From the NCBI GenBank assembly GCA_030655315.1, contig JAURVT010000001.1:1-64000 (forward strand): a DNA stretch of 64,000 nucleotides, in the 5' to 3' direction. Source of the stretch: Nocardioidaceae bacterium (lineage in GTDB: Bacteria; Actinomycetota; Actinomycetes; Propionibacteriales; Nocardioidaceae). Below the pieces are notes generated by a model, which had not been told where the DNA came from, did not search any database, and saw only the letters and a program-made list of their open reading frames with translations. The translations under genes were made by a program, and so were the position numbers. Positions 41,573-57,868 of this stretch are shown piece after piece. The number at the start of each line of letters is the position of its first letter. Position 1 is the stretch's first letter.

Positions 41573-41920
41573 TCAGTCCTCGTCGTCGCGGTCGGCGAGC
41601 TCGTCGCGCACCAGCAGGTCGCGCCGGACGGGGCTGGTGCGGTAGGCGGCGCGTCCGACCATGTGCGCCGACACGGGCGCGGTCATGAACTGGAAGAGCG
41701 CGACCAGGACGATCACGCCCAGGGCCTCGCCCGAGCGGAGCCGCAGCTCGACGCCGACCAGGACGAGCAGCAGCCCGAGCACCTGCGGCTTGGTGGCCGC
41801 GTGCATGCGGCTGAACAGGTCGGGGAAGCGGACGATGCCCACGGCGGCCGCGAGCGACAGCAGCGACCCGCCGATCAGGCAGACCGCCGCGGCGGCGTCG
41901 GCGACGTCGGTCCAGGTCAT
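41573..41920 (-). CDS. mnhG: Na+/H+ antiporter subunit G
   Basis: A 115-residue membrane subunit of the Mnh/Mrp complex with three helices and an acidic tail. The conserved GIVRFPDLFSRMHAATKPQVLGLLL is diagnostic for MnhG/PhaG. It is the last gene of the operon; its ATG overlaps the mnhF stop by four bases. Confidence 0.95.
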   Translation of the reverse strand: MTWTDVADAAAAVCLIGGSLLSLAAAVGIVRFPDLFSRMHAATKPQVLGLLLVLVGVELRLRSGEALGVIVLVALFQFMTAPVSAHMVGRAAYRTSPVRRDLLVRDELADRDDED

Positions 41921-42201
41921 GCGTGGTCACGTCCCTCGGTCTTCTCCTCGCGCGCGGCGAACCGGGCGACGCTGACGGACCCGACGAACCCGAGCAGCGA
42001 CAGCGCCACCAGGATCGGGAGGGTGGTGGCGTGCCGGTTGACGGCCGCCTCCAGCCCGAGCGCGCACACGCAGATCGCCACGAGCACGTCCATCGCGATG
42101 GTGCGGTTGAGCGTCGTCGGCCCCAGCGCCATCCGCAGCACCGTCAGGGCCGCGCTGACGCCGAGCAGCGCCACGCAGACCACGATCACCCAGGTGCTCA
42201 C
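41917..42201 (-). CDS. mnhF: Na+/H+ antiporter subunit F
   Basis: A 94-residue subunit with three helices. GPTTLNRTIAMDVLVAICVCALGL is the family signature, with the conserved Asp in helix 2. It overlaps mnhE and mnhG by four bases on each side, so stoichiometric translation of the complex is likely. Confidence 0.95.
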   Translation of the reverse strand: MSTWVIVVCVALLGVSAALTVLRMALGPTTLNRTIAMDVLVAICVCALGLEAAVNRHATTLPILVALSLLGFVGSVSVARFAAREEKTEGRDHA

Positions 42202-42758
42202 TGTGACTCCTCCACGGCGGCCTCGTAGTCACGCATCTCCGCGTCCGACGCGAGCGCCCGCATGACCCGGCGCTCCTGCGCCCACACGTTCTGCCGTGCC
42301 CGCTCGACCTCGGCGTCGTCCCGGACACCGAGCACGTGCAGGTACAGGGTGCGCCGGCGGTAGTTGGTCTCGAGCAGCAGGCTGCCGGGGACGAGCGACA
42401 CCAGCTCGGCGGTGATCAGGAAGTAGGCGTCGGCCAGGCTCCGCAGCGGCACCGCGATGATCGCGTTGGACGGCTGGTACCAGGGGTTGAGCGCCTTGCC
42501 CGCCACCTGCACGCTCGCCTTGACGAGGTCGACGAGGAAGACCCCGAGCAGCACGAGCAGACCCACGGGGCGGACCCGGCCGGAGAACTGCAGCGGCGGC
42601 AGCGGGAAGACCGTCAGGACGGTGATCGCGACGAGCACGCCGCAGATCACGTTGAACCACGACAGGTCGCCCCACAGCATCACCCAGACCGCGGCCAGCC
42701 CGGTGATGACGGGCCACTGGTAGGTGAGCCTGACGCGCTGCAGGCGGTTGCCGGCCAT
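42198..42758 (-). CDS. mnhE: Na+/H+ antiporter subunit E
   Basis: A 186-residue subunit. Helices lie in the first 90 residues (TYQWPVITGLAAVWVMLWG, PVGLLVLLGVFLVDLVKASVQVA), followed by the soluble domain with PGSLLLETNYRRRTLYLHVLGV. It overlaps mnhD by one base (TGATG) and mnhF by four. Confidence 0.95.
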   Translation of the reverse strand: MAGNRLQRVRLTYQWPVITGLAAVWVMLWGDLSWFNVICGVLVAITVLTVFPLPPLQFSGRVRPVGLLVLLGVFLVDLVKASVQVAGKALNPWYQPSNAIIAVPLRSLADAYFLITAELVSLVPGSLLLETNYRRRTLYLHVLGVRDDAEVERARQNVWAQERRVMRALASDAEMRDYEAAVEESQ

Positions 42759-44368
42759 CACTCGCCCCCCGCCGTCGAGGGGTCGTCGCCGGCGTCGGTG
42801 TCGTCGGTGAGCACCGCCGAGATGTACGGCGTGCGCTCCATCAGCTCGGTCGCCGACCGCTCGCTGACGCCGTACAGCGGTCCGGCGACGAGGGTGAGGG
42901 ACGACCCCAGGACCACCAGCACCAGCGTCGGCACGACCATCGCGGTGGGCAGCTTGGTGAGGTTCGACAGCGCGTCGACGCTGCCCCAGCGCTCGCCGGA
43001 CTTGGTGCCGCTGGACCAGCGGTGGTCGAGGTCGTCGAGGTCCTCGGGCGCGGGCTGCCAGAACGCGCGGTTCCAGGTCTTGGCGATGGCGTACAGCGTG
43101 AGCAGGCTGGTGACGATCGACCCGGCGACCACCAGGGTGGACAGCCAGCCGGCCCGGTCGATGCCGCCCTGGACCAGGGCGACCTTGCCGAGGAACCCCG
43201 AGAACGGCGGGATGCCGCCGAGGTTCATGGCCGGCACGAAGAACATCACGGCCAGCAGGGGAGCGGACCTGGCCAGGCCGCCGAGCCGGTCCAGGGACGT
43301 GCTCCCGCCCCTGACCTCGATCAGACCGGTCACCAGGAACAGGGTCGTCTGGATGGTGATGTGGTGGACGACGTAGAAGATCGCGCCGGTCAGACCCAGC
43401 TCGGACGCGAGCGCGATCCCGAAGATCATGTAGCCGATGTGGCTCACGAGGGTGAACGAGAGCAGACGCTTGATGTCGGACTGGGCGACGGCGCCGAGGA
43501 TGCCCACCACCATCGTCAGCAGCGCGGCCCACAGCAGGAAGTCCGACAGCGGGCTGTCGGGGAAGAGCAGCGTCTGGGTGCGGATGATCGCGTAGACGCC
43601 CACCTTGGTGAGCAGCCCGGCGAACACCGCGGTGACGGGCGCGGGCGCCGTCGGGTAGCTGTCGGGGAGCCAGGCCGACAGCGGGAACACCGCTGCCTTG
43701 ATCGAGAAGGCGGTGAGCAGCAGCAGCTGCAGCACCAGCTGGACGCCCGGCGGCACCGAGTCCATCCGCTGCGCCACGTCGGCCATGTTGACCGTGCCGA
43801 CGGCGGCGTAGGTCGCGGCGATGGCGATCAGGAACAGCATCGAGGACAGCAGACTGACCACGACGTAGGTGGTACCGGCCCGCACCCGGGGGCCGGTGCC
43901 GCCGAGCGTGATGAGCACGTAGCTCGCCGACAGCAGCACCTCGAACCCGACGAAGAGGTTGAACAGGTCGCCGGACAGGAAGGCGTTGGACACACCGGCG
44001 CTGAGCACCAGGAACGTCGGGAAGTACACCGAGAGGGGGGTGTCGCGCCCGAACTCGATGACGCCCTGGCCGAGCGAGTACGCGAGCACGCACAGGGTGA
44101 CGACGGTCGAGACCAGCAGCATCAGCGCCGAGAGGCGGTCCGCCACCAGGCTGATGCCGAGCTCGGCCGGCCAGGCGCCCAGGTGGACCACCTGCGGGCC
44201 GTCGGTGTCGGCGCGCACCAGCAGCACCGCCGCGATGACGACGACGGCGCTGAGCACGCCGAAGCTGATCAGGCGCTGTGCGCGAGCGGAGCGGCCGAAG
44301 ACCAGGCAGGCGCCGGCGCCGAGCAGCGGCAGGACGACGGGCAGCGGGATGATCACGTTGACGTTCAC
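42758..44368 (-). CDS. mnhD: Na+/H+ antiporter subunit D
   Basis: A 536-residue, about 14-helix proton-pumping subunit homologous to complex I NuoN/NuoM. Conserved features are the helix 5 Glu (FVGFEVLLSASY), the Lys in FSIKAAVFPLSAWLPDSYPTAPAPV, and the Lys/His of the later helices. The start is GTG 44368, overlapping the mnhC stop as GTGA. A reading that starts further upstream would run through mnhC. Confidence 0.95.
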   Translation of the reverse strand: MNVNVIIPLPVVLPLLGAGACLVFGRSARAQRLISFGVLSAVVVIAAVLLVRADTDGPQVVHLGAWPAELGISLVADRLSALMLLVSTVVTLCVLAYSLGQGVIEFGRDTPLSVYFPTFLVLSAGVSNAFLSGDLFNLFVGFEVLLSASYVLITLGGTGPRVRAGTTYVVVSLLSSMLFLIAIAATYAAVGTVNMADVAQRMDSVPPGVQLVLQLLLLTAFSIKAAVFPLSAWLPDSYPTAPAPVTAVFAGLLTKVGVYAIIRTQTLLFPDSPLSDFLLWAALLTMVVGILGAVAQSDIKRLLSFTLVSHIGYMIFGIALASELGLTGAIFYVVHHITIQTTLFLVTGLIEVRGGSTSLDRLGGLARSAPLLAVMFFVPAMNLGGIPPFSGFLGKVALVQGGIDRAGWLSTLVVAGSIVTSLLTLYAIAKTWNRAFWQPAPEDLDDLDHRWSSGTKSGERWGSVDALSNLTKLPTAMVVPTLVLVVLGSSLTLVAGPLYGVSERSATELMERTPYISAVLTDDTDAGDDPSTAGGE

Positions 44369-44793
44369 GTGTCCGCCCCCTCCTCGTCGAGCTCGCCGTC
44401 GGAGCCGCCGTCGAAGGTCGAGGAGGTCTCGTCGCGCTCGGCCAGACGGGTGATCAGGGCGTCCTCCACGTCGTCCTGGACCTCGTCGTCGCCGCCGAGC
44501 TGCCACGACCGGTAGGCCATCGCGAGCAGGAACGCCGAGACGCCGAGGGTGATGACGATGGCCGTGAGGACCATCGCCTGGGGGAGCGGGTCGCTCATCG
44601 GGCCGGGCCCGACCGACCCGAGCACCGGCGCGTTGCCGGCCGGGCCCGAGGCGACCAGGAAGAACAGGTTGACGCCGTTGCTGAGCAGCAGCACGCCGAC
44701 CAGGATCCGGGTCAGGCTGCGCTCGAGCAGCAGCGTCACGCCGCAGGCGACGAGCACCGCCATCAGGATCACCAGCGTCAGGTTCGTGGTCAC
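44365..44793 (-). CDS. mnhC: Na+/H+ antiporter subunit C
   Basis: A 142-residue NuoK-like subunit with three helices; LLSNGVNLFFLVASG and PLPQAMVLTAIVITLGVSAF are typical. It carries a long acidic C-terminal tail (about 45 residues, rich in Asp/Glu), longer than in most MnhC proteins. It overlaps mnhA and mnhD by four bases. Confidence 0.95.
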   Translation of the reverse strand: MTTNLTLVILMAVLVACGVTLLLERSLTRILVGVLLLSNGVNLFFLVASGPAGNAPVLGSVGPGPMSDPLPQAMVLTAIVITLGVSAFLLAMAYRSWQLGGDDEVQDDVEDALITRLAERDETSSTFDGGSDGELDEEGADT

Positions 44794-47675
44794 GAGATCC
44801 CCTCCGCCGGGGCTGCGTCGGGGACCGAGGACGGGTCGTCGTCCTCGGCCTCGGCCTCGGCGCCGCGGTCGATGCCGCCGCCGAGGCTGCGCAGGACGTC
44901 GAGCATCAGGCCGACGACGACGAGGTAGACGCCGAAGTCGAAGAACAGGGACGTGACCAGCTTGACGTAGCCCAGCACCGGCAGCGTGCCGTCGACGACG
45001 GCGCTCTGCAGGACCTCGCCGCCGAACGCCAGCGGCGCGAGCGCCGACAGCGTGGCGATGACGAGCCCGAGGCCGAGCAGGTGCCCGGCGTCGACGGGCG
45101 CCGCCTCGTCAAGCTCGTGACGGCCACCCGCGAGGTACCGGACCATCAGGGCCAGGCCCGCGATCAGCCCGCCGGCGAACCCGCCGCCGGGCTCGTTGTG
45201 TCCGGAGAACACCAGGAACAGCGAGAACACCATGATCATGTGGAACACGAGCCGGGTGACGATCTCGAAGACCACCGAGCGTCGCTCCTCCGACAGCGTC
45301 CGACCGGCCCGCAGCCAGCGGCTGGGGTGGTCGATCGCCTCGTCGGGGCGGACGCGACCGGTGCGCCCGGTGATGAGGAAGATCAGGCTGGCGACGCCCG
45401 TCGCGGCGACCACCAGCACCGACAGCTCGCCCATGGTGTCCCAGGCGCGGATGTCGACGAGCGTCACGTTGACGACGTTCTCGCCGCCGCCGAAGTCGTA
45501 GGCCTCGCGGGCGAACGCCTCCGACACCGGCGGCAGGGTCCGCGCCCCCGACGCCGCGAGGGCGAACCCGCCGACGGCCACGCCCGCGGCGACGCCGATC
45601 GCGACGCGCCACCAGCGGGCGATGGTCAGCGGGCGGTCGGAGAAGTAGGCCGGCAGGCGGCGCAGCACCAGCAGGAAGATCACCAGGGTGACGGTCTCGA
45701 CGAGGACCTGGGTGAGGCCGAGGTCGGGCGCGCCGTGCAGGACGAACATCACGGCCATCCCGTAGCCGGCGACGCCCACGAGGATGACGGCCTTGAGCCG
45801 CTTGCGCGAGCGGACGGCCGCGATCGCGGCGACGGCCATGATGACCGCGACGACGGCCTGCGCCGGGTGCTGCCACGCGACGACGTCGCCGAGGCCGTCG
45901 AACTGGCGGACGAGCGCGAAGCCGGGCACGAGCACGAGCGCGAGCACGATGGTGCCGAGGTAGAGGGGGAGCGAGCCACGCTGCGTGGCACCGGTGACCT
46001 CGACCGCGAGCCGGTCGACGCCGCGCATGCCCCACTGGTAGCCGCGCTCGGCGTCGGGCAGGCGGGTGAACTGGGCCTGGAGCACCTCGGTGCGGTAGCG
46101 CTGCAGGTGGAGGACGACGCCGCCGGCGACCGCGACGGCCGACAGCAGCAGCGGCAGCTCGAAGCCGTGCCACAGCGCGAGGTACTCCTCGTGCTCGCCG
46201 GCCGGGAAGGCGGTGGAGTAGCCCTCGACGAGGGTCGTCCACGGGCGCCCGAGAAAGCCGACGACCAGGCTGAGCACGGCGAGCACGGCCGCGGGCGCCA
46301 GGAACCCGGCGGGGATCGCGTCGGGCTCGCGCGGCAGCTCGGCGCCGTCCTTGTCGGCGAACACGCCCCAGACGAAGCGCAGGCTGTAGGCCACCGTGAG
46401 GAGCGAGCCCACCACCAGCCCGGCGAGGACGAGCCACCCGGCCCACGACGGCAGCCCGGTGCCGTCACCGGTTCTGGCGACCTCCTCGAAGGCGGCGAAC
46501 ACCGTCTCCTTGGCCACGAAGCCGGTGAGCGGCGGGATGCCCGCCATCGACGCGGCCGCGAGCACGGTGACGACGAGCAGCACCGGCATCCGTCGGGCCA
46601 GGCCGGTGAGCTGGCGCAGGTCGCGGGTGCCGCAGGAGCGGTCGACGATGCCGACGACCATGAACAGCGCGGCCTTGAACAGGGCGTGCGCGCAGATCAT
46701 GGCGACGCCCGCGAGCGCGGCGTTGCGGGTGCCGAGCCCGACGATCGCCATCAGGAAGCCCAGCTGGCTGACCGTGCCGTAGGCGAGGAGCAGCTTGACG
46801 TCGTGCTGGCGCAGCGCCCGCAGGCCGCCGACCAGCATCGTCAGCACGCCGAGCACGAGGAGCGACGGTCGCCAGAGCGGGGTGTCGGCGAACGCGGGCG
46901 CGAGCAGGGCGACCAGGAAGATGCCGGCCTTGACCATCGCGGCGGCGTGCAGGTAGGCGCTGACCGGGGTGGGGGCGGCCATGGCGCCGGGCAGCCAGAA
47001 GTGGAACGGCACGAGGGCCGACTTGGAGACCGCGCCGACGAGGATCAGGGCGATCGCGGCGGTGACCGCGGCGCCCGACGGCTCGGCCGCGACGATGTCG
47101 GCGATGCGGTACGTGCCGACGCGCTGACCGAGCACGATGATGCCGACGAGCATCGCGAGGCCGCCGAACGTCGTGACGATCAGGGCGTTCATCGCGGCCC
47201 GACGGTTGGCCTTGCGCTCGGGGTTGTGGCCCACCAGCAGGTAGGAGAAGACGGTGGTGAGCTCCCAGAAGACGAACAGGAGCAGGAAGTCCTCGGACAG
47301 GACCAGCCCGAGCATCGACCCGGCGAACCCGGTGAGGACGGCGGAGAAGCGCCAGATCTCGGGGTCACCGGGGCGGAAGTACCAGGCGCAGTAGACCAGC
47401 ACGAGCGCGCCGACGCCGGTGACGAGCACGGCCAGGAACCACGAGAGGGTGCCGAGCGAGAACGCCAGCTCGAGGTCCAGCGCGGGCACCCAGGGGGTGA
47501 CCTGCTCGACCGCTCGGGCGTCCGGGCCGGTGACGGTGGAGGTCTGGGCGAGGATCCAGGCCAGCGACCCGGCCGGGACGAGCGCGAGGACCAGGAAGGC
47601 CCGGCGGTCCATCAGGCGGGTCAGGGCAGGCGCGACGGCTGCGGCGACGAGGTGGATCGCGACGAGGAGCAGCAT
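44790..47675 (-). CDS. mnhA: Na+/H+ antiporter subunit A with fused MnhB domain
   Basis: A 961-residue giant subunit homologous to NuoL. The proton-channel part contains FWELTTVFSYLLVGHN, SKSALVPFHFWLPGAMAAPTPVSAYLHAAAMVKAG and the TGFVAKE loop. The C-terminal 230 residues include the MnhB-type domain (RLVFHMIMVFSLFLVFSGHNEPGGGFAGGLIAGLALM), so no separate mnhB gene is needed, as in other actinobacteria. It is the first gene of a six-gene operon that exports Na+ (and other cations) for pH and salt homeostasis. Confidence 0.96.
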   Translation of the reverse strand: MLLLVAIHLVAAAVAPALTRLMDRRAFLVLALVPAGSLAWILAQTSTVTGPDARAVEQVTPWVPALDLELAFSLGTLSWFLAVLVTGVGALVLVYCAWYFRPGDPEIWRFSAVLTGFAGSMLGLVLSEDFLLLFVFWELTTVFSYLLVGHNPERKANRRAAMNALIVTTFGGLAMLVGIIVLGQRVGTYRIADIVAAEPSGAAVTAAIALILVGAVSKSALVPFHFWLPGAMAAPTPVSAYLHAAAMVKAGIFLVALLAPAFADTPLWRPSLLVLGVLTMLVGGLRALRQHDVKLLLAYGTVSQLGFLMAIVGLGTRNAALAGVAMICAHALFKAALFMVVGIVDRSCGTRDLRQLTGLARRMPVLLVVTVLAAASMAGIPPLTGFVAKETVFAAFEEVARTGDGTGLPSWAGWLVLAGLVVGSLLTVAYSLRFVWGVFADKDGAELPREPDAIPAGFLAPAAVLAVLSLVVGFLGRPWTTLVEGYSTAFPAGEHEEYLALWHGFELPLLLSAVAVAGGVVLHLQRYRTEVLQAQFTRLPDAERGYQWGMRGVDRLAVEVTGATQRGSLPLYLGTIVLALVLVPGFALVRQFDGLGDVVAWQHPAQAVVAVIMAVAAIAAVRSRKRLKAVILVGVAGYGMAVMFVLHGAPDLGLTQVLVETVTLVIFLLVLRRLPAYFSDRPLTIARWWRVAIGVAAGVAVGGFALAASGARTLPPVSEAFAREAYDFGGGENVVNVTLVDIRAWDTMGELSVLVVAATGVASLIFLITGRTGRVRPDEAIDHPSRWLRAGRTLSEERRSVVFEIVTRLVFHMIMVFSLFLVFSGHNEPGGGFAGGLIAGLALMVRYLAGGRHELDEAAPVDAGHLLGLGLVIATLSALAPLAFGGEVLQSAVVDGTLPVLGYVKLVTSLFFDFGVYLVVVGLMLDVLRSLGGGIDRGAEAEAEDDDPSSVPDAAPAEGIS

Positions 47676-47839: not shown

Positions 47840-48100
47840 TCAGGCGACCTTCTTGCGACCGGTGACGGCGTTGTAGACCAGCAGCGCGACGATGGCGCCG
47901 ATGATCGAGCCGATGATGCCCGAGGCGCTGATGTCGATGTTGCCTCCGAAGATCAGCGACCCGAGGAAGCCTCCGACGAAGGAGCCGACCATGCCGAGGA
48001 TGATCGTGGCGATGATCCCCATGTTGTCGTTTCCGGGGACGATCGCGCGGGCGAGGAAGCCCGCGATGAGTCCGACGATGATGAATCCGATGATTCCCAT
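47840..48100 (-). CDS. GlsB/YeaQ/YmgE family membrane stress protein
   Basis: An 86-residue transglycosylase-associated-type protein with three membrane helices and glycine-rich packing (MGIIGFIIVGLIAGFLARAIVPG, GMVGSFVGGFLGSLIFGG). Family members are induced by stationary phase or envelope stress, and their function is unclear. The ATG at 48100 is chosen for the AGAGAGG site upstream and because homologs start MGIIGFI. It stands alone. Confidence 0.92.
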   Translation of the reverse strand: MGIIGFIIVGLIAGFLARAIVPGNDNMGIIATIILGMVGSFVGGFLGSLIFGGNIDISASGIIGSIIGAIVALLVYNAVTGRKKVA

Positions 48101-48270
48101 GGTGGTGCCTCTCTGTGGTGGACGGGTGTGGTCCCCGAGGACCCGACCACACACTAGAGGTCGAGGGACGTTTCGGCTCGTCGAGAAGTTCCCACCCGTT
48201 CGCGAAGGTTGCGTGGCTCACAGCGGGCTCACAGGTGACGCCCGGCCGTCACCCAGGCGTCCGGGCCATG

Positions 48271-48987
48271 ATGGTGCCCGTGCAGCAGACCTCTGACGCC
48301 CCCGCCCGGCTCCTCGTCGTCGACGACGAGCCGAGCATCCTCGAGCTCCTCGCGGCGAGCCTGCGGTTCGCCGGGTTCGAGGTCGAGACCGCCGAGGGCG
48401 GCCAGGCCGCGCTCGACCAGGCGGCGGCGAGCCGTCCGGACCTGGTGGTGCTCGACGTGATGATGCCCGACCTCGACGGGTTCGAGGTCGTGCGGCGGCT
48501 GCGCAGCAGCGGCGACGAGGTGCCGGTCATCTTCCTCACCGCGCGCGACGCCGGGTCGGACCGCGTCGCCGGCCTGACGGTCGGCGGCGACGACTACGTC
48601 GCCAAGCCGTTCAGCCTGGAGGAGCTGGTGGCCCGCGTCCGCGCGGTCCTGCGCCGCGCCCGCGGCATCGCCCCGCCGTCGTCGACGACGACCCTGGCCC
48701 TGGCCGACCTCGAGATGGACACCGACAGCCACGAGGTCCGCAAGGCGGGCGCGCTCGTCGAGCTGTCGCCCACGGAGTTCAACCTGCTGCGCTACCTGCT
48801 CCAGAACGTCGGACGGGTGCTGTCGAAGCAGCAGATCCTCGACCACGTCTGGCAGTACGACTTCGGCGGCGACGGCAACGTCGTCGAGACCTACGTGTCG
48901 TACCTGCGCCGCAAGATCGACACCACCGAGCCGCGCCTGCTCCACACCGTCCGTGGGTTCGGCTACGTGGTGCGGCTGCCCCGGTGA
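48271..48987 (+). CDS. OmpR-family response regulator
   Basis: A 238-residue regulator with a receiver domain (phosphoacceptor Asp62 in VVLDVMMPDLDGFE, Lys in DDYVAKPF) and an OmpR-type winged helix (LSPTEFNLLRYLLQNVGRVLSKQQIL, YVSYLRRKID). It resembles MprA/TcrX/PrrA-type regulators. Two tandem ATGs at 48268 and 48271 could both be used. It is coupled to the sensor kinase by a GTGA overlap. A 22-bp repeat array downstream of the kinase is a candidate target. Confidence 0.93.
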   Translation: MVPVQQTSDAPARLLVVDDEPSILELLAASLRFAGFEVETAEGGQAALDQAAASRPDLVVLDVMMPDLDGFEVVRRLRSSGDEVPVIFLTARDAGSDRVAGLTVGGDDYVAKPFSLEELVARVRAVLRRARGIAPPSSTTTLALADLEMDTDSHEVRKAGALVELSPTEFNLLRYLLQNVGRVLSKQQILDHVWQYDFGGDGNVVETYVSYLRRKIDTTEPRLLHTVRGFGYVVRLPR

Positions 48988-50435
48988 GCGTCCGGGAGCG
49001 GACCGCCGCGCTCCCGCTGCGCGTCCGGCTCGTCGCGATCCTGGTGCTCTCGGTGATCGTGGGCCTGGCGGTCACCGCGGTCGTGGCCAACGTGGTGCTC
49101 GAGCGCTCGCTCGTGTCGCGGGTCGACGACCAGCTCGGCGAGCAGTCCCGACGCTTCGGCGACCAGCGCTTCAGCACGCCTCCCATGGGCGATCCGGGCG
49201 GCGACGGGGACCGCGACCGTCCGCAGCTGCCGAGCCCGCTGTTCGTCCAGTACGTCGACGCCGCCGGCCAGGTGGTCGTCCGGCGCTCGGACGACCGCCG
49301 CAGCGACCGTCAGCTGCCCGACCTCGGGACGCTCGACGCCGACCGGGTGGAGGCGCTCGGCACCGATCCGTTCACGGTCGGCTCGACGGGGGGCGGCACG
49401 CAGTGGCGCGTCGTCGTCCGTCCCCTCGACAACGGCGACAGCGTCGTCACCGCGCTCGACCTCGACGACGTCGACGAGACGGTCTCGCGCCTCGCACTGA
49501 TCGAGACGGGCGTGGCCGGGCTCGTCGCGGTGCTGCTCGGCGGTGCCGGGTACCTGGTGGTCCGCTCGAGCCTGCGACCGCTCGTCGAGGTGGAGCACAC
49601 CGCCGAGGCGATCGCCGCGGGCGACCTGTCGGCGCGCGTCCCCGACCTCGACCCCCGGACCGAGGTGGGTGGGCTGTCGGTGGCGATCAACCAGATGCTC
49701 GTGCGGATCGAGGACGCCGTCCGCTCCCGCGAGGAGGCGGCCGACTCCGCGCGCGACTCCGAGCAGCGGATGCGTCGCTTCGTCGCCGACGCGAGCCACG
49801 AGCTGCGCACGCCCCTGACGTCCATCCGCGGGTTCGCCGACCTCTACGCCCAGGGCGGCTCGCCCGACCGGGACACCACCGACCGGTTCATGGGGCGCAT
49901 CCAGTCCGAGTCCGCGCGGATGGGTCTGCTCGTCGAGGACCTGCTCGTGCTCGCCCGGATGGACCAGGACCGCCCGCTCGACCTCGGCCCCGTCGACCTC
50001 GTGCCGCTCGCCGAGGAGGTCGTGCAGGACGCGCGCCTCACCGAGCCCGACCGGCCTGTGGTGCGCGTCGCCGGCAGCAGCCGCGTCGTCGTGACCGGCG
50101 ACGCCGACCGCCTGCGCCAGGTCCTCACCAACCTGGTGCGCAACGCACTCGTGCACACCCCGCCCGGCACGCCCGTCAGCGTGTCGGTGCAGGTCGATGA
50201 CGGCGAGGGCGTGCTCGTCGTGCGCGACAAGGGCCCCGGCATGTCGGCCGAGGACGCCGCGAAGGTGTTCGAGCGCTTCTACCGCGCCGAGCGGTCCCGC
50301 TCCCGCGTCGTCGGCGGCAGCGGCCTCGGCCTGTCGATCGTGTCGGCGCTCGTCGACGCCCACGGCGGCAGCGTCGACCTGCGGACCGCCCCCGGTGAGG
50401 GCGCCACCTTCACCGTCCGCCTCCCCCTCGCCTAG
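48984..50435 (+). CDS. Sensor histidine kinase
   Basis: A 483-residue membrane kinase. Helix 1 (about 15-38) and helix 2 (about 172-194) bracket an extracellular sensor domain of 130 residues that is rich in charged residues. HAMP (195-250), the HisKA domain with His272 (DASHELRTPL) and an HATPase domain (N-box NLVRNALVHTP, DKGPGM, GGSGLGLSIV) follow. It pairs with the response regulator upstream. The signal is unknown. The next genes on the same strand are glycosyltransferases. Confidence 0.93.
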   Translation: MSVRERTAALPLRVRLVAILVLSVIVGLAVTAVVANVVLERSLVSRVDDQLGEQSRRFGDQRFSTPPMGDPGGDGDRDRPQLPSPLFVQYVDAAGQVVVRRSDDRRSDRQLPDLGTLDADRVEALGTDPFTVGSTGGGTQWRVVVRPLDNGDSVVTALDLDDVDETVSRLALIETGVAGLVAVLLGGAGYLVVRSSLRPLVEVEHTAEAIAAGDLSARVPDLDPRTEVGGLSVAINQMLVRIEDAVRSREEAADSARDSEQRMRRFVADASHELRTPLTSIRGFADLYAQGGSPDRDTTDRFMGRIQSESARMGLLVEDLLVLARMDQDRPLDLGPVDLVPLAEEVVQDARLTEPDRPVVRVAGSSRVVVTGDADRLRQVLTNLVRNALVHTPPGTPVSVSVQVDDGEGVLVVRDKGPGMSAEDAAKVFERFYRAERSRSRVVGGSGLGLSIVSALVDAHGGSVDLRTAPGEGATFTVRLPLA

Positions 50436-50440
50436 CTCGA

Positions 50441-50528
50441 TCCGTCACTTCCGCCGGTCCCGTCCGTCACTTCGGCCGGACAGGACCAGCAGAACCGCCG
50501 GACCGCACCAGCCGAACCGCCGGATCGC
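50441..50528. repeat. Four 22-bp tandem units with CCGCCGG core
   Basis: Units start at 50441, 50463, 50485 and 50507. Each has CCGCCGG (CGGCCGG in unit 2) at positions 11-17. Units 1 and 2 share TCCGTCACTT, and units 3 and 4 are nearly identical (ACCAGC.GAACCGCCGGA). The 22-base period is about two helical turns, as expected for protein binding on one face. A further pair GTGTGGAC (50533, 50547) follows. It lies in the 181-base gap before the glycosyltransferase genes. Confidence 0.75.
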
Positions 50529-50616
50529 GGGGGTGTGGACGCTCGGGTGTGGACTCTCAGGCGGACCACAGGGTAAGTGGGGGTGACGCGCAGGTGGCGG
50601 CGTCAGTGTTCGGGAC

Positions 50617-51882
50617 ATGGAAGCCACCACAGTCGTCCCGGGCCTGGACCGGACGCCCCTCCCGCCCCCGTCGCGCCAGCTCCAGACCCTGCCCGGGCGT
50701 CGGTCCGACGACCGGCCGAGCCGGGTCGAGATCCTGGTGCCGGTCAAGAACGAGGAGTCCGGGCTGGCCTCGAGCGTCCGCAGGCTGCGGACCTACCTCG
50801 ACGTGTCGTACCCGTTCAGCGCGGACGTGTGCATCGTCGACAACGGCAGCACCGACAGCACCTGGGACGTCGCCCAGGAGCTGGCCGACGAGCTGGACGG
50901 GGTCCGCGCCGTCCGGCTGGAGCGGCCGGGCCGCGGCAACGCGCTCAAGACCGTCTGGTCGTGCAGCGACGCCGAGGTGCTCGCCTACATGGACGTCGAC
51001 CTGTCCACCGACCTCGACGCGCTGCTGCCGCTGACCGCGCCCCTGCTGTCGCGCCACAGCGACGTGGCCATCGGCACCCGCCTCGCGCCGGGCTCGCGGG
51101 TCGTCCGCGGCAGCTACCGCGAGGTGCTGTCCCGGGGCTACAACCTGCTGCTCCGCACGGCGCTCGGCGTCCGCTTCAGCGACGCGCAGTGCGGCTTCAA
51201 GGCCGTCCGTGCCGACGTCGCCGCCCGGCTCCTCCCGCTGGTCAAGGACGGCAGCTGGTTCTTCGACACCGAGCTGCTCGTCCTCGCCGAGCGCGCCGGC
51301 CTGCGCATCCACGAGGTGCCGGTCGACTGGGTGGACGACCCCGACTCGCGGGTCGACGTGCGGAAGACGGTGCTCGAGGACCTCAGGGGCGTCGTCCGCG
51401 TGCGTCGCGACGCCGCCCACGGCCGGCTCGGCCTGGAGGCGCTCGGCGACGAGTTCGCGCGGCGCACGCTGGGGCCGACGCAGGCGCCGCTGCCCGTCCG
51501 CCTGGCCCGGTTCGCCGCGGTGGGGGTGCTCAGCACCGTGGCCTACGCCGCGCTCTTCCTGCTGCTCCGGACCGTGCTGGGCGCGCAGGCGGCCAACCTC
51601 GCGTCGCTGCTGATCACCGCGGTCGCCAACACCGCGCTGAACCGTCGCTTCACCTTCGGCGTCAGCGGTCGCGTCGGCCGCACCACCCACCACCTCAAGG
51701 GCCTGGTGACGTTCGGCGTCGGCTGGGGCCTGACGGCCGGCACGCTCGCGCTCCTGCACGCGAGCGCGGCCACGCCGTCCACCACCGTCGAGATCGTCGC
51801 GCTCACCGCGGCCAACCTCGCCGCCACCGTCGTCAAGTTCGGGCTCTTCCACGCCTGGGTCTTCACGGGGGACCAGAAGTGA
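50617..51882 (+). CDS. GT2 glycosyltransferase fused to a GtrA membrane domain
   Basis: A 421-residue fusion. The N-terminal GT2 domain (about 38-265) has the nucleotide-sugar fold EILVPVKNEE, DNGSTDSTW and the metal motif DVDLSTDLDALL, plus GFKAVR. This is dolichol-phosphate-mannose-synthase-like. The C-terminal GtrA domain (about 285-415) has four helices and ends NLAATVVKFGLFHAWVF. Such enzymes load a sugar on polyprenyl phosphate, and GtrA helps flip or present it. It is coupled by GTGA to the next glycosyltransferase, which would use the lipid-linked sugar outside. Confidence 0.92.
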   Translation: MEATTVVPGLDRTPLPPPSRQLQTLPGRRSDDRPSRVEILVPVKNEESGLASSVRRLRTYLDVSYPFSADVCIVDNGSTDSTWDVAQELADELDGVRAVRLERPGRGNALKTVWSCSDAEVLAYMDVDLSTDLDALLPLTAPLLSRHSDVAIGTRLAPGSRVVRGSYREVLSRGYNLLLRTALGVRFSDAQCGFKAVRADVAARLLPLVKDGSWFFDTELLVLAERAGLRIHEVPVDWVDDPDSRVDVRKTVLEDLRGVVRVRRDAAHGRLGLEALGDEFARRTLGPTQAPLPVRLARFAAVGVLSTVAYAALFLLLRTVLGAQAANLASLLITAVANTALNRRFTFGVSGRVGRTTHHLKGLVTFGVGWGLTAGTLALLHASAATPSTTVEIVALTAANLAATVVKFGLFHAWVFTGDQK

Positions 51883-53801
51883 CCACCACCCTCGCCCGCC
51901 CCGCGGACGCGTCCGCCGGGTCCGTCGCCGACGCCTCGGTGCAGCGCACCACCCGGTCACCACGACGCAGCCGCGGCGAGCGCGTCGCCTTCTGGTCGCT
52001 GGTCGCCGGGACCGCGCTGCTCTACCTCTGGGACCTCACGGTCAACGGCTACTCCAACGAGTTCTACGCCGCCGCCGTCCAGGCCGGGTCGCAGAGCTGG
52101 AAGGCCTGGTTCTTCGGGTCGCTGGACGCGTCCAACGCGATCACCGTCGACAAGACGCCCGGCGCGCTGTGGCTGATGGGCCTGTCGGCCCGGGTCCTCG
52201 GGTTCAGCAGCTTCTCGATGCTGCTGCCCCAGGTGCTGCTCGGCATCGGCTCGGTGGTCGCGCTGTACGGGTCCGTGCGCCGCTGGTTCGGACCAGTGGC
52301 CGGCTTCGTCGCCGGGCTGGTGCTCGCGCTGACCCCGGTCGCCGCGCTGATGTTCCGCTTCAACAACCCCGACGCGCTGCTGGTGATGCTGTCCGTCGTG
52401 GCGGCCTACGCGGTGACGCGGGCGATCGAGTCGCCGCGTCGCGCGCTGCGCTGGATGGTCCTCGCCGGAGCGCTGGTCGGGTTCGCCTTCCTGGCCAAGA
52501 TGCTGCAGGCCTTCCTCGTGCTCCCCGGGTTCGTCCTGGCCTACGCCCTCGCGGCACGCGTCGGCCTCGGCCGGCGCGTCGTGCACCTGCTCGCGGCGTT
52601 CGCGGCGATGGTCGTCGCCGCGGGCTGGTGGATCCTGGCCGTCGAGCTGTGGCCGTCCGCGTCGCGCCCCTACATCGGCGGGTCGCAGTCCGACAGCATC
52701 CTCGAGCTCACCCTCGGCTACAACGGCCTGGGGCGCCTCAACGGCGACGAGACGGGCTCGGTCGGCGGTGGCGGTGGCGCCAGCGGCGGGCAGTGGGGCG
52801 ACCCCGGGCTGTTCCGGCTGGTCGGGTCCGAGATGGGCTCGCAGATCGGGTGGCTCCTGCCCACGGCGCTCCTCGCCCTCGGCGTGCTCGTGGCCCTGTC
52901 CGGACGCGCCCCACGCACCGACCGCAGGCGCGCGTTCGCGCTCCTCTGGGGCGGCTGGCTGCTCGTCACGGGCCTGACGTTCAGCTTCATGCAGGGGATC
53001 ATCCACAGCTACTACACGGTGGCCCTCGCCCCCGCCATCGGTGCGCTCGTCGGTGCCGGCGCGGTGGAGCTCTGGCGCCGCCGGGACGACCTCGTGGCCC
53101 GTGCGGCCAGGGCCGGGGGAGCCGTGCTGACCGCCGGCATGGCCTTCTCGCTCGTGAGCGTCTCGGGCGCGCACGCCTGGATCGGCTGGGTCGCGCTGGT
53201 GGCGGGGCTCCTCGCCGCCGCGCTGCTCCTCGTCGGGCCCGACCTCGCGCACGGCTGGGCCCGTCCGACGGCCGTGGCCGCCGCCGCGCTCGTCGCGGTC
53301 GCGGCGCTCCTCGGCCCGGCCACCTCCGCGGTGGCGACGGTCGCGAGCGCCAACACCGGCACCCTCCCGTCGGCGAGCGCCTGGGCGGCGGCGTCGTCCA
53401 CCCGGGGCGGACCCGGGGGAGGCGGCGGGATGGGCGGCTTCCTCGGCGGCAACGGCACCAGCGGGGTGACCGACGAGATGGTGTCGCTGCTCCAGGAGGG
53501 CGACTACACCTGGGCGGCCGCGGCCGTCACGGCCAACGCCGCGGCACCGCTCCAGCTCGCCTCGGGCGAGCCGGTGATGGCCGTCGGCGGCTTCAACGGC
53601 ACCGATCCCTCGCCCACGCTCGCCGAGTTCCAGGCGCTCGTCGCCGACGGGCAGATCCACTACTTCGTCGCCGGCGACTCCGGTCGCGGCGGCGGCATGG
53701 GCGGACAGGCCGACAGCGCGATCGCCACCTGGGTGGAGCAGACCTTCACCGCCGCGACGGTCGGCAGCTCGACCGTCTACGACCTCACCAGCCCGTCATG
53801 A
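51879..53801 (+). CDS. GT39-type (ArnT/PMT-like) membrane glycosyltransferase
   Basis: A 640-residue polytopic enzyme with about 11-12 helices. The first loop has NEFYAAAVQAGSQSWKAWFFGSLDASNAITVDKTP, where an acidic residue would be catalytic. It probably transfers a sugar from polyprenyl phosphate to a protein or wall polymer outside the cell. Odd points are glycine-rich insertions (GGGGGASGG at about 290; GGPGGGGGMGGFLGGNG at about 510) and an extracellular C-terminal domain of about 120 residues after the last helix. The GTG start overlaps the preceding stop. Confidence 0.88.
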   Translation: MTTTLARPADASAGSVADASVQRTTRSPRRSRGERVAFWSLVAGTALLYLWDLTVNGYSNEFYAAAVQAGSQSWKAWFFGSLDASNAITVDKTPGALWLMGLSARVLGFSSFSMLLPQVLLGIGSVVALYGSVRRWFGPVAGFVAGLVLALTPVAALMFRFNNPDALLVMLSVVAAYAVTRAIESPRRALRWMVLAGALVGFAFLAKMLQAFLVLPGFVLAYALAARVGLGRRVVHLLAAFAAMVVAAGWWILAVELWPSASRPYIGGSQSDSILELTLGYNGLGRLNGDETGSVGGGGGASGGQWGDPGLFRLVGSEMGSQIGWLLPTALLALGVLVALSGRAPRTDRRRAFALLWGGWLLVTGLTFSFMQGIIHSYYTVALAPAIGALVGAGAVELWRRRDDLVARAARAGGAVLTAGMAFSLVSVSGAHAWIGWVALVAGLLAAALLLVGPDLAHGWARPTAVAAAALVAVAALLGPATSAVATVASANTGTLPSASAWAAASSTRGGPGGGGGMGGFLGGNGTSGVTDEMVSLLQEGDYTWAAAAVTANAAAPLQLASGEPVMAVGGFNGTDPSPTLAEFQALVADGQIHYFVAGDSGRGGGMGGQADSAIATWVEQTFTAATVGSSTVYDLTSPS

Positions 53802-53854
53802 CCGATCCGAGCAGCACCCACCCGAGCAGCACCCACCCGAGACAGGAGAACGAG

Positions 53855-54256
53855 ATGGACCGGACCCGAGAGGTCGAGCGCCCCGTGGACCACGCACCCG
53901 AGGGGCAGGCCCCGCCGGTGGTCGACTGGCCCACCGAGCCCGCGGCCGCGCACCCCGCGCCGCCGCCCCGCCAGACGGGTGCCCCCGCGGGCTGGGCGGC
54001 CCTGGGACGCAAGCCGGTGGCGATCGCCCTCGCCGGCGCCGTCCTCGCCGCCACCACGTTCCTCGGCGGCTTCGCCGTGGGACGCACCACCGGCGGCGAC
54101 GGCGCGGCCACCCAGCAGGGCGGCTTCGGCGGAAGCGGTTTCGGCGGCCCGCAGCAGGGTGGGCCGGGCAACCAGCAGGGCCAGGGCACCGTGCCGAACC
54201 AGCAGGGCCAGGGCGCCGTCCCGAACCAGCAGCAGGGCGGCACCACGACCAGCTGA
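53855..54256 (+). CDS. Small Gly/Gln/Asn-rich single-pass membrane protein
   Basis: A 133-residue protein with a proline-rich cytoplasmic head (about 45 residues), one helix (PVAIALAGAVLAATTFLGGFAVG, about 53-75) and an exported tail rich in Gly, Gln and Asn with repeats of NQQGQG. No domain is recognised. It is the last gene of the glycosyltransferase operon, and its tail resembles the glycine-rich insertions of the preceding enzyme. It may be an acceptor or accessory of that enzyme. The start is ATG 53855 (AGGAG 8 bases upstream); an in-frame ATG at 53798 overlapping the previous stop is the alternative. Confidence 0.75.
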   Translation: MDRTREVERPVDHAPEGQAPPVVDWPTEPAAAHPAPPPRQTGAPAGWAALGRKPVAIALAGAVLAATTFLGGFAVGRTTGGDGAATQQGGFGGSGFGGPQQGGPGNQQGQGTVPNQQGQGAVPNQQQGGTTTS

Positions 54257-54456: not shown

Positions 54457-55620
54457 ATGATGACACAGGCACGACGCATCTCGGCGGTCCTCACGATCGG
54501 CGTGTCGCTCTTCGGCCTGATGTCGACCCTCGGGGCCTCCGGCGCGTCCGCCGTCACGGCGCCGACGCCCGTCCCGACCGTGGCCAAGGGCCTGCGGGCC
54601 CCGGTGGCCCAGCCGGCGGCGCTCGACGCGGCCGCGACCTACCAGCCGCAGGTGTCCTGCTCCCCGGTCGCGCTCCCGGGCACGAAGAAGCTCCGTGACC
54701 TCGCGCTGCGCACCTACGGGGTGGGCCGCGACGGTGGGACCACCCGCGCGTGCTCGATCGGCGGGCTCTCCGAGCACAAGGAGGGGCGCAGCTGGGACTA
54801 CATGCTGAACGTCAAGAACCCCACCGAGAAGAAGACCGCGGGGCAGTTCATCGACTTCCTGACGGCGGGCGGCGGCCTGCAGGCGCGCCGGCTCGGCGTC
54901 ATGTACGTCATCTACAACAAGAAGATCTGGTCGTCCTACCGGACCGGGTGGCGCGACTACCGCGGCGCCCAGGACCACACCGACCACGTCCACGTCTCGC
55001 TGAGCTGGGCCGGTGCCCGCGGCCTCACCTCGTTCTGGACCGGACGGGTGGGCGCCGTCGACTTCGGGCCGTGTGCCGCCTTCACCGGCCAGCCCGCGGC
55101 CGTGCGCTCCAGCGCCCGCAGGACCCCGTGTCCCACGACGGCGGCCCGGGTGAAGTCCACCTCCCTCCCCACGACCTACGTCGGGGCCTCGGGCACCCTC
55201 GTCCGGACGGCACAGAAGGCCGTCGGGACCCCGGTGACCGGCCGGTTCGACACCCGGACCTGGACCGCGCTGAAGAAGTACCAGAGCGCCAACGACGTCC
55301 CCAAGACCGGCGTGCTCGACGCGGCCACCTGGGCGTCCCTGGTCCCCGCGCGCGTCACCTACGACGCCGCGAAGGGCATGACCGCCGCCGGCGCCGCGGC
55401 CTACGGTCGCCAGCACTACGGAGCGACGCGCCTCGCCCCGGCGTCCGCCGGCAAGGCCGTGCTGCTGCTTCAGGTCGCCCTCGGCATGCCGGTCCGGCAG
55501 CGCACCGGCTACTACGGGGCCAGGACCAAGGCCGCCGTCGCGGCGGTGCAGTCCGCCCGCGGGCTGCGCCGGACCGGGACGGCCGACCGGTCCCTGTGGA
55601 CGGTGTTGACGCCGCGGTGA
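54457..55620 (+). CDS. Secreted peptidoglycan-binding protein with peptidase-like domain
   Basis: A 387-residue exported protein. The signal peptide is about residues 1-32 (cut near ASA). A domain at about 65-205 with SEHKEGRSWDYML and DHTDHVHVSLSW resembles LAS-type (VanY/M15-like) metallo-peptidases and their ARB_07466-like relatives; the His/Asp set may bind zinc. Two peptidoglycan-binding-1 units follow (about 245-295 and 325-385; GTLVRTAQKAVGTPVTGRFDTRTW, LLLQVALGMPVRQRTGYYGARTKAAV). It is likely a wall-bound hydrolase or a receptor-like wall protein. It begins ATG-ATG. Confidence 0.85.
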   Translation: MMTQARRISAVLTIGVSLFGLMSTLGASGASAVTAPTPVPTVAKGLRAPVAQPAALDAAATYQPQVSCSPVALPGTKKLRDLALRTYGVGRDGGTTRACSIGGLSEHKEGRSWDYMLNVKNPTEKKTAGQFIDFLTAGGGLQARRLGVMYVIYNKKIWSSYRTGWRDYRGAQDHTDHVHVSLSWAGARGLTSFWTGRVGAVDFGPCAAFTGQPAAVRSSARRTPCPTTAARVKSTSLPTTYVGASGTLVRTAQKAVGTPVTGRFDTRTWTALKKYQSANDVPKTGVLDAATWASLVPARVTYDAAKGMTAAGAAAYGRQHYGATRLAPASAGKAVLLLQVALGMPVRQRTGYYGARTKAAVAAVQSARGLRRTGTADRSLWTVLTPR

Positions 55621-56820: not shown

Positions 56821-57609
56821 TCAGTCTCGCGGGCTCGTCCACGGCTCGCTCGGGTACCCGGTGTCGAAGTGCATGTAGTCGGCCACGTCGATGTTCTGCC
56901 AGATCCAGCCCTCACGCTCGAACAGGCGCCACACGAGGCCGCCCCGGAGCACCTTGCCCTTGCCGGGCGTGCGGTCGGCGTGCTTCGCGATCGGGGACCA
57001 GCACTCGCAGCGGGGGTCCATCCAGGGGTTCTCGCGGGGGTTGATGTCGATCGCGCGCCCGTTGGCGTGCGGCGACGCCATGGGCGGCGCGTTGATCTGG
57101 TCCGGCCGGCGGCAGTTGTAGACCGCGGTGTTGTCGGCCGCCAGGCTCGCGTCGCTGTCGCCGTCGTAGGCCTCGACGGACTGCATCCGACGGATCGGGA
57201 ACCGCTCCTCGAACAACCGGGTGAAGATCCGGGACAGGCTCGGGGCCACGTCGCGGTTCACCACCAGGACGCCGCGCTGCACCTCGCCGTCCCAGTCCCA
57301 GTAGTTCAGCTCGAGCCGCCGGAGCTGGGCACGGGTGGCCGGGCAGCCCTCGCGCCACATGCCGAGCTCGCGCATCGTCCGCCACTGGTCGCGGGGGAGC
57401 GGCGAGGTGACCGGGTCGGCGCTGGTCGGCACCGGGGGTGTCGTCGGCGCGGGCGTCGTGGGCGCGGGCGTCGTCGGCGTCGGGGGCGGTGCCGACGACG
57501 TGGCCGCGGTGGGCGCGCCCGTCGCGTCGTCGCCCGAGCCGCCGCTCGGTCCCGAGCACGCGGTCAGGAGCAGCAGGGTCGCCGTCACGATCAGCAGGGG
57601 CGGTCGCAT
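56821..57609 (-). CDS. D-alanyl-D-alanine carboxypeptidase-like lipoprotein (M15)
   Basis: A 262-residue lipoprotein with lipobox LLTACSG and a Thr/Pro-rich linker (about 25-70). The M15 zinc peptidase domain has SPHANGRAIDINPRENP (His and Asp ligands) and YMHFD. These trim the D-Ala from peptidoglycan stems outside the membrane. The ATG at 57609 is chosen because it begins the signal peptide MRPPLLIVTATLLLL; an upstream in-frame ATG adds 23 unlikely residues. It is followed at once by the hydrolase gene. Confidence 0.88.
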   Translation of the reverse strand: MRPPLLIVTATLLLLTACSGPSGGSGDDATGAPTAATSSAPPPTPTTPAPTTPAPTTPPVPTSADPVTSPLPRDQWRTMRELGMWREGCPATRAQLRRLELNYWDWDGEVQRGVLVVNRDVAPSLSRIFTRLFEERFPIRRMQSVEAYDGDSDASLAADNTAVYNCRRPDQINAPPMASPHANGRAIDINPRENPWMDPRCECWSPIAKHADRTPGKGKVLRGGLVWRLFEREGWIWQNIDVADYMHFDTGYPSEPWTSPRD

Positions 57610-57868
57610 GCCCCACAGCCTCCCCCACGGCGCGTCCCCACCCAAGCCTTCGCCGCCGACCCGCGTCGTGTGGGCCACGTCACGTCACGGTGTCGACGGT
57701 CGGGTGTTTGAGCGGTCAACGAACGGGGAAGCATGTCCTCGTCCCCCGGATAGGCAGCGCCCGGCGTGGGCCTCCGCGCGTCTCCCCCGTACGCCGCGGA
57801 AGCGCCCCGCCGGGCGTTGTCGCGTCCGGGGGTCCCGAGGTCGCGGCGCTGTCGAGTCGTGATGTCGT

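Follow-up and report, generated by a model that had tools for sequence, protein, structure and literature searches.

The window analysed here is a 64,000-nt stretch in which five plus-strand genes make up an envelope-glycosylation module beside a two-component system, as the earlier note had proposed; gene calling and an ORF check within the window bore out all five genes where it had put them. An OmpR-type response regulator (48268–48987, PF00072 and PF00486; first ATG at 48268, second in-frame ATG at 48271) is followed, through a GTGA overlap, by a sensor histidine kinase with HAMP, HisKA and HATPase_c domains (48984–50435), and the two can indeed be described as a coupled regulator-kinase pair. 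The remaining three genes encode a GT2 (GT-A) glycosyltransferase fused to a GtrA/DPMS transmembrane domain (50617–51882), a YkcB-type GT-C glycosyltransferase (51879–53801, PF13231 and PF24878) and a small single-TM protein (53855–54256), the latter a putative accessory subunit on the basis of its homologues, linkage and selection.

Divergent from the regulator, on the minus strand, lies a gene for a Transglycosylase-associated small membrane protein (47840–48100, PF04226). This family we take to be the one also named GlsB/YeaQ/YmgE-type. The gene occupies the same place in genomes G020 and G299, as observed in loci L133 and L212, and its product is a possible regulon member. The window, G020 and G299 have one gene order in common: Transgly_assoc (divergent), response regulator, kinase, GT2, GT39-type transferase, small gene. 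Further upstream, minus-strand genes at 41573–47675 resemble those of an Mrp-type cation antiporter (the one scanned matches PF00361, PF04039, PF13244 and PF20501). Directly adjoining the module downstream is an exported peptidoglycan-binding protein (54457–55620, PF01471), and a lipoprotein-like protein at 56821–57678 is by motif presumably D,D-carboxypeptidase-like (putative).

For neither the regulator nor the kinase did any of the 25 listed NCBIfam models reach its curated cut-off. The kinase sensor region is 33–42% identical to kinases adjoining YkcB-type genes in Rhodococcus, Williamsia, Nocardia and G020. Between the kinase and the GT2 gene is a gap of 181 bp holding an imperfect inverted repeat (50438–50527) with arms of 42+42 nt that are 71% complementary. 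The repeat is composed of CCGTCACTTC(C/G)GCCGG units at 22-bp spacing, which are also found on contigs C11, C1, C56 and C7 of the window's own genome (G000). This dispersed palindrome looks, from its sequence, like a REP-like element of that genome, and the direct repeats in the kinase-GT2 gap were rejected as a private regulator site because the same units occur elsewhere in the genome. The two-component pair does adjoin the module it was proposed to control, but the 181 bp with the inverted repeat separates the regulator pair from the trio, so that coupling across the whole set of five is no more than a possibility.

The GT2-GtrA fusion was confirmed by domain content, with PF00535 above its cut-off and PF04138 present as the fused domain. 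Sequence comparison matches residues 35–204, the GT2 domain, to 5mlz (E 1.3e-12) and places it among the DPMS/ArnC relatives. We take 5mlz to be the Pyrococcus furiosus DPMS, with a second, GtrA/DPMS-type membrane domain; the sequence match to the window protein is limited to the GT2 domain. The fusion protein would be expected to make and present a polyprenyl-phosphate sugar. Judged by domains, the GT-A enzyme and GtrA-type flippase components of a multi-component transmembrane glycosylation system would thus both be present.

The transferase was correctly recognised in the earlier note as a GT39-type enzyme with an exported C-terminal domain. It is of the PMT_2 type, overlaps the GT2-GtrA gene by GTGA, and scores 103.9 bits against PF13231 (PMT_2 catalytic region, cut-off 26.1) and 101.8 bits against PF24878 (YkcB_C, cut-off 27). 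A structure predicted from 48 sequences (pLDDT 88.7, pTM 0.90) shows the exported YkcB_C domain, residues 539–621, as folded. The best solved structural match of the model is ArnT (5f15; Z 29.3 over 497 residues, 19% identity), with an aligned DKTP/EKPP motif. ArnT, the L-Ara4N transferase, acts on lipid A. The YkcB_C domain and the Gly-rich loops set the window transferase apart from ArnT. Further best solved relatives are oligosaccharyltransferases and Pmt4 (Z 26.5), and the window enzyme shares its predicted GT-C fold with canonical PMTs. The enzyme itself has no PF02366 or PF16192 match at E ≤ 0.001, and a PF02366 search of its own genome gives matches on contigs C55 and C38 and none in the window. 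Canonical PMT was thus rejected as an assignment, as the window protein has neither domain and the genome's PMT is encoded elsewhere. The claim that standard mannosylation genes are missing accordingly stands for the window transferase but not for the genome, which encodes a canonical PMT beyond the window. We conclude that the window gene encodes a YkcB-type GT-C enzyme with a predicted ArnT-like fold. The same genome contains a second YkcB-type transferase (L131, on contig C38), 54% identical, with no GT2 or two-component genes nearby.

The Gly-rich loops of the transferase (residues ~290–306, ~506–530 and ~600–611) are all of low confidence in the model. Over 122 YkcB_C family sequences, the window included, the richest 40-residue stretch contains a median of 17 Gly and a minimum of 10, compared with 15 in the window. 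The notion that these insertions are special to the window locus was hence rejected: they are a trait of the family.

The GT-A and GT-C enzymes of B. subtilis YkcB-YkcC and YkoS-YkoT are, as in the window, encoded together in one operon. The window differs from both in the fusion of GtrA to GT2, in the adjacent two-component genes and in the small one-TM protein that follows. Judged by sequence, the GT2-GtrA/GT-C core belongs to the multi-component transmembrane glycosylation systems of the YkcBC type. A C55-P-sugar enzyme, a GtrA-type flippase and a GT-C enzyme are likewise combined in the LTA/WTA glycosylation systems CsbB/GtcA/YfhO and GtlA/GtcA/GtlB, according to the accessible text of PMC8035078 and PMC5836110. 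However, YfhO belongs to another GT-C family and the acceptor there is teichoic acid; the same accessible text mentions no small partner. The available part of PMC11081497 reports that overexpression of YkcC in a strain lacking ykcBC induces SigM, which its authors read as trapping of undecaprenyl phosphate. PMC13390465, to judge from the portion available, deals with gsf, which is another kind of GtrA cluster.

Two-component control has also been reported for this type of system: in B. subtilis, ykcBC lies in the YclJ and YrkP regulons and ykoST is under YkoH-YkoG (PMC5836110, accessible sections). The earlier note had called the module undescribed. This does not apply to the transferase pair or to its two-component control, but it may apply to the small protein, which is the new element: to judge from the listings of the open-licence literature, none of the papers listed deals with it, or with an actinobacterial association of YkcB-type genes and two-component systems or DUF5666.

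PF24878 was found in 79 of 197 genomes of the class and 68 of 117 of the order, while among 14 control genomes B. subtilis alone has it. YkcB-type transferases are thus widespread in the class, yet the function and acceptor of YkcBC are described as unknown even in B. subtilis (PMC8035078 and PMC5836110, in the text accessible). The neighbourhoods of 80 named loci, the best 80 of at least 592 related ones, were surveyed. Within this best 80, a GT2-GtrA relative lies no more than five genes from the transferase in 60, both a response regulator and a kinase lie within five genes in 40, and two YkcB-type genes within three genes occur in 26. The two-component association is recurrent, and it is absent in half of the 80. 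Common gene orders are RR-HK-GT39-GT2(-GT39) and RR-HK-GT2-GT39, with GT2-GT39-RR-HK in some Nocardia. These counts, as well as those of Gly-rich genes given below, are lower bounds, because the gene caller used does not pick up every gene; in L051 and L066, for instance, it fails to call the small one.

The small gene was assigned to the ATG at 53855, 53 nt from the transferase stop. This start has AGGAG six bases upstream and was also picked by the gene caller. In eleven other loci the homologous start follows the stop by 2–44 nt (42 nt in G020, 44 nt in G299, 2–26 nt in nine Kribbella-like loci), an operon-like spacing. A possible ATGA start at 53798 was rejected as the weaker call on these three grounds, so that of the overlaps said to tie the trio together the GTGA between GT2-GtrA and transferase holds and the ATGA does not. 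The protein consists of a Pro-rich N-terminus, a conserved helix with FLGGxAVG and a Gly/Gln-rich tail. It has no Pfam or NCBIfam match at E ≤ 0.001, PF18914 included.

A profile (A2) was built from the window protein and six relatives, and seven of its matches are thus there by construction. Across the 117 order genomes, all 38 matches at E ≤ 1e-13 (7 of the 38 being profile members) share their strand with a PF24878 match and are no more than 1.5 kb downstream of it. At looser cut-offs the linkage is 39/41 (E ≤ 1e-6; 2 unlinked) and 39/49 (E ≤ 1e-3; 10 unlinked). A profile of the helix core recovers 41 of 44 loci, and the three it misses are unlinked matches in G311, G289 and G018, whose homology is doubtful for that reason. 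The small gene is present in all 36 sampled genomes of the Kribbella-like genus g28 that have PF24878. In the window's own family, a linked small gene occurs in 3 of 17 sampled genomes with PF24878, namely the window's, G020 and G299. The small gene is therefore conserved together with the transferases within the clade, a point on which the earlier note had staked its proposal, while outside it most YkcB-type genes are without the gene, which can therefore not be essential to the enzyme family.

The helix core has a pN/pS of 0.115 and a mean identity of 0.90 among 37 g28 sequences; the helix is under purifying selection. This bears on the reading that the locus is an ordinary YkcBC-type wall-polymer glycosylation locus and the small gene a near-neutral, low-complexity passenger. 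The wide distribution of the PF24878 family, the low complexity of the tail and the lack of a small gene in most clades would agree with such a passenger, but the helix pN/pS and the 36/36 co-occurrence in g28 would be unexpected, even if close relatives also share passengers. We consider this reading very improbable.

The tails are variable and of low complexity (29–118 residues, 59% Gly/Gln/Asn in 40 sequences). The earlier note had remarked that the small protein shares the odd composition of the transferase insertions. This applies to Gly, but not to Gln and Asn, whose combined fraction is 0.06 in the insertions and 0.29 in the tail. Within 36 Kribbella-like pairs, k-mer sharing between insertion and tail of the same genome is no greater than in shuffled pairs, and the idea of the two as sequence-matched partners was rejected for this reason. 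The Gly fractions of insertion and tail correlate at Spearman 0.35 (p 0.04; Gly being among five residues tried, 36 pairs, genomes related). The lengths of insertion and tail also correlate (Spearman 0.58, 36 Kribbella-like loci from related genomes), an observation that is not leaned on here.

The tail is the part that would matter if the small protein were the acceptor, with the YkcB-type enzyme glycosylating the exposed tail of one dedicated membrane-anchored glycoprotein. The operon-like linkage with the transferase fits this proposal, as does the presence of at least three Ser/Thr in 40 of 40 tails (mean 15% of tail residues) and of repeated N-G-T in some (L198 has 12 N-x-S/T motifs). However, a seven-sequence alignment has no tail Ser/Thr at a fixed place, L139 gets by with 3 in 61 residues, and N-x-S/T is absent from 31 of 40 tails, that of the window included; furthermore, the most conserved part of the protein is its helix. 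An acceptor role is in our view unlikely. Of the two roles suggested before, sugar acceptor or a partner that holds the enzyme, the partner fits better, because the helix is conserved and the tail has no conserved Ser/Thr or N-glycosylation site.

There are nine Kribbella-like loci in which the small gene accompanies the transferases and no response regulator or kinase is called in the stretch examined; the small gene therefore follows the transferases. Our preferred reading, held with slightly more than even confidence, is that the small protein is an accessory subunit packed on the transferase within a regulated YkcBC-type sugar-transfer module. It is preferred because the helix is conserved, the tail is variable, linkage to the transferase is strict within the clade and the gene occurs without adjacent regulators. 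Several observations count against it, among them the 181-bp gap before the trio, the lack of an adjacent regulator-kinase pair in half of the 80 loci and the absence of the small gene beside most YkcB-type genes outside the clade. In addition, the transferases that have a small gene make up, with one exception, a set of 11 rows with full support; at the locus of the eleventh row, L054 (Kribbella antibiotica), neither that gene nor a GT2 gene is seen. Moreover, in several genomes (e.g. G203, G152 and G109) the closest kinase-sensor matches, among the matches listed and judged by eye, sit off the contig that carries PF24878.

What the analysis observed is the domain content, the predicted fold, the gene order, the operon-like spacing, and how far the small gene is conserved and linked. 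For the reaction, its sugar and acceptor, its sidedness, the role of the subunit and the regulation, we infer the following course. On the cytoplasmic side, the GT2 domain would charge polyprenyl phosphate with a sugar. The fused GtrA domain would serve as an anchor for the enzyme and may assist the passage of the lipid-sugar through the membrane. The ArnT-like GT-C enzyme would then hand the sugar to an acceptor on the outer side; its C-terminal domain and its flexible Gly-rich loops would presumably sit over the exit. The conserved helix of the small protein could pack against the transferase, or against the GT2-GtrA/transferase pair, leaving the disordered Gly/Gln tail as a possible tether or as an arm that recruits the acceptor. 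Expression would be adjusted by the two-component system next to the trio, which probably responds to a signal from the envelope. The accessible text of PMC8035078 includes the speculation that some smaller GT-C enzymes need a second, acceptor-binding protein, a question left open there; the small protein is a candidate for a partner of this sort. Being small and conserved, it would offer a handle for pull-down and acceptor finding.

Other one-TM Gly-rich proteins adjoin the module in Lentzea, Saccharothrix, Amycolatopsis, Mycolicibacterium, Aeromicrobium and Nocardioides, often divergently from the regulator. By a homology-free definition of such proteins, set after examples were known, they account for 29 of 202 genes in or next to the module and 6 of 780 elsewhere (101 loci, including one duplicate record, L136 = L081; Fisher p 1e-15, related genomes included). 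Those divergent from the regulator in L055, L056, L075, L091, L100, L105 and others (Pseudonocardiaceae, Mycobacteriaceae) have a DUF5666-like C-terminal domain. Modelling gives this beta domain the form of an OB-like barrel, whose best matches are weak (none at E ≤ 0.001) and include CusF and cold-shock proteins. PF18914 matches three of five divergent neighbours scanned, each below the cut-off. The DUF5666 part of the profile for this divergent type (A1) matches many genomes without PF24878. The divergent proteins are not clearly homologous to the window small protein.

They nonetheless raise the question of whether the small protein belongs on the signalling side, as a membrane accessory or target of the two-component system that is adjacent to the transferase by chance. 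Regulator-divergent one-TM Gly-rich proteins in Lentzea, Saccharothrix, Mycolicibacterium, Aeromicrobium, Nocardioides and others, often with the OB domain, would suit this possibility, and G065, a genome without a PF24878 match, has such a protein directly after a related regulator-kinase pair. Nevertheless, the nine Kribbella-like loci place the small gene after GT2-GT39 with no regulator or kinase called nearby, and profile A1 has no match at E ≤ 0.001 in the window's genome. We regard a signalling role as distinctly unlikely. Returning to the accessory subunit, a broader extension would be that a lineage-specific, clade-obligate small subunit (or dedicated glycoprotein acceptor) has been added to the core, and that Gly-rich one-TM proteins are a recurring and so far unrecognised fourth component across Actinobacteria, wired into two-component control; we offer this tentatively, as less likely than not.

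Gly-rich small proteins were also matched outside such modules. None of the module's genes were called around the matches L207 and L208. In L206 (4722–10059), from a genome without a PF24878 match, a small Gly-rich one-TM gene follows NAGPA, GT2-GtrA and Cthe_2159 genes, and its product is a possible distant homologue (E 7.9e-7). The L206, L207 and L208 proteins may share composition only, as the helix-core profile misses all three. The L206 cluster may represent a second system for glycans, equipped with a small protein of this type.
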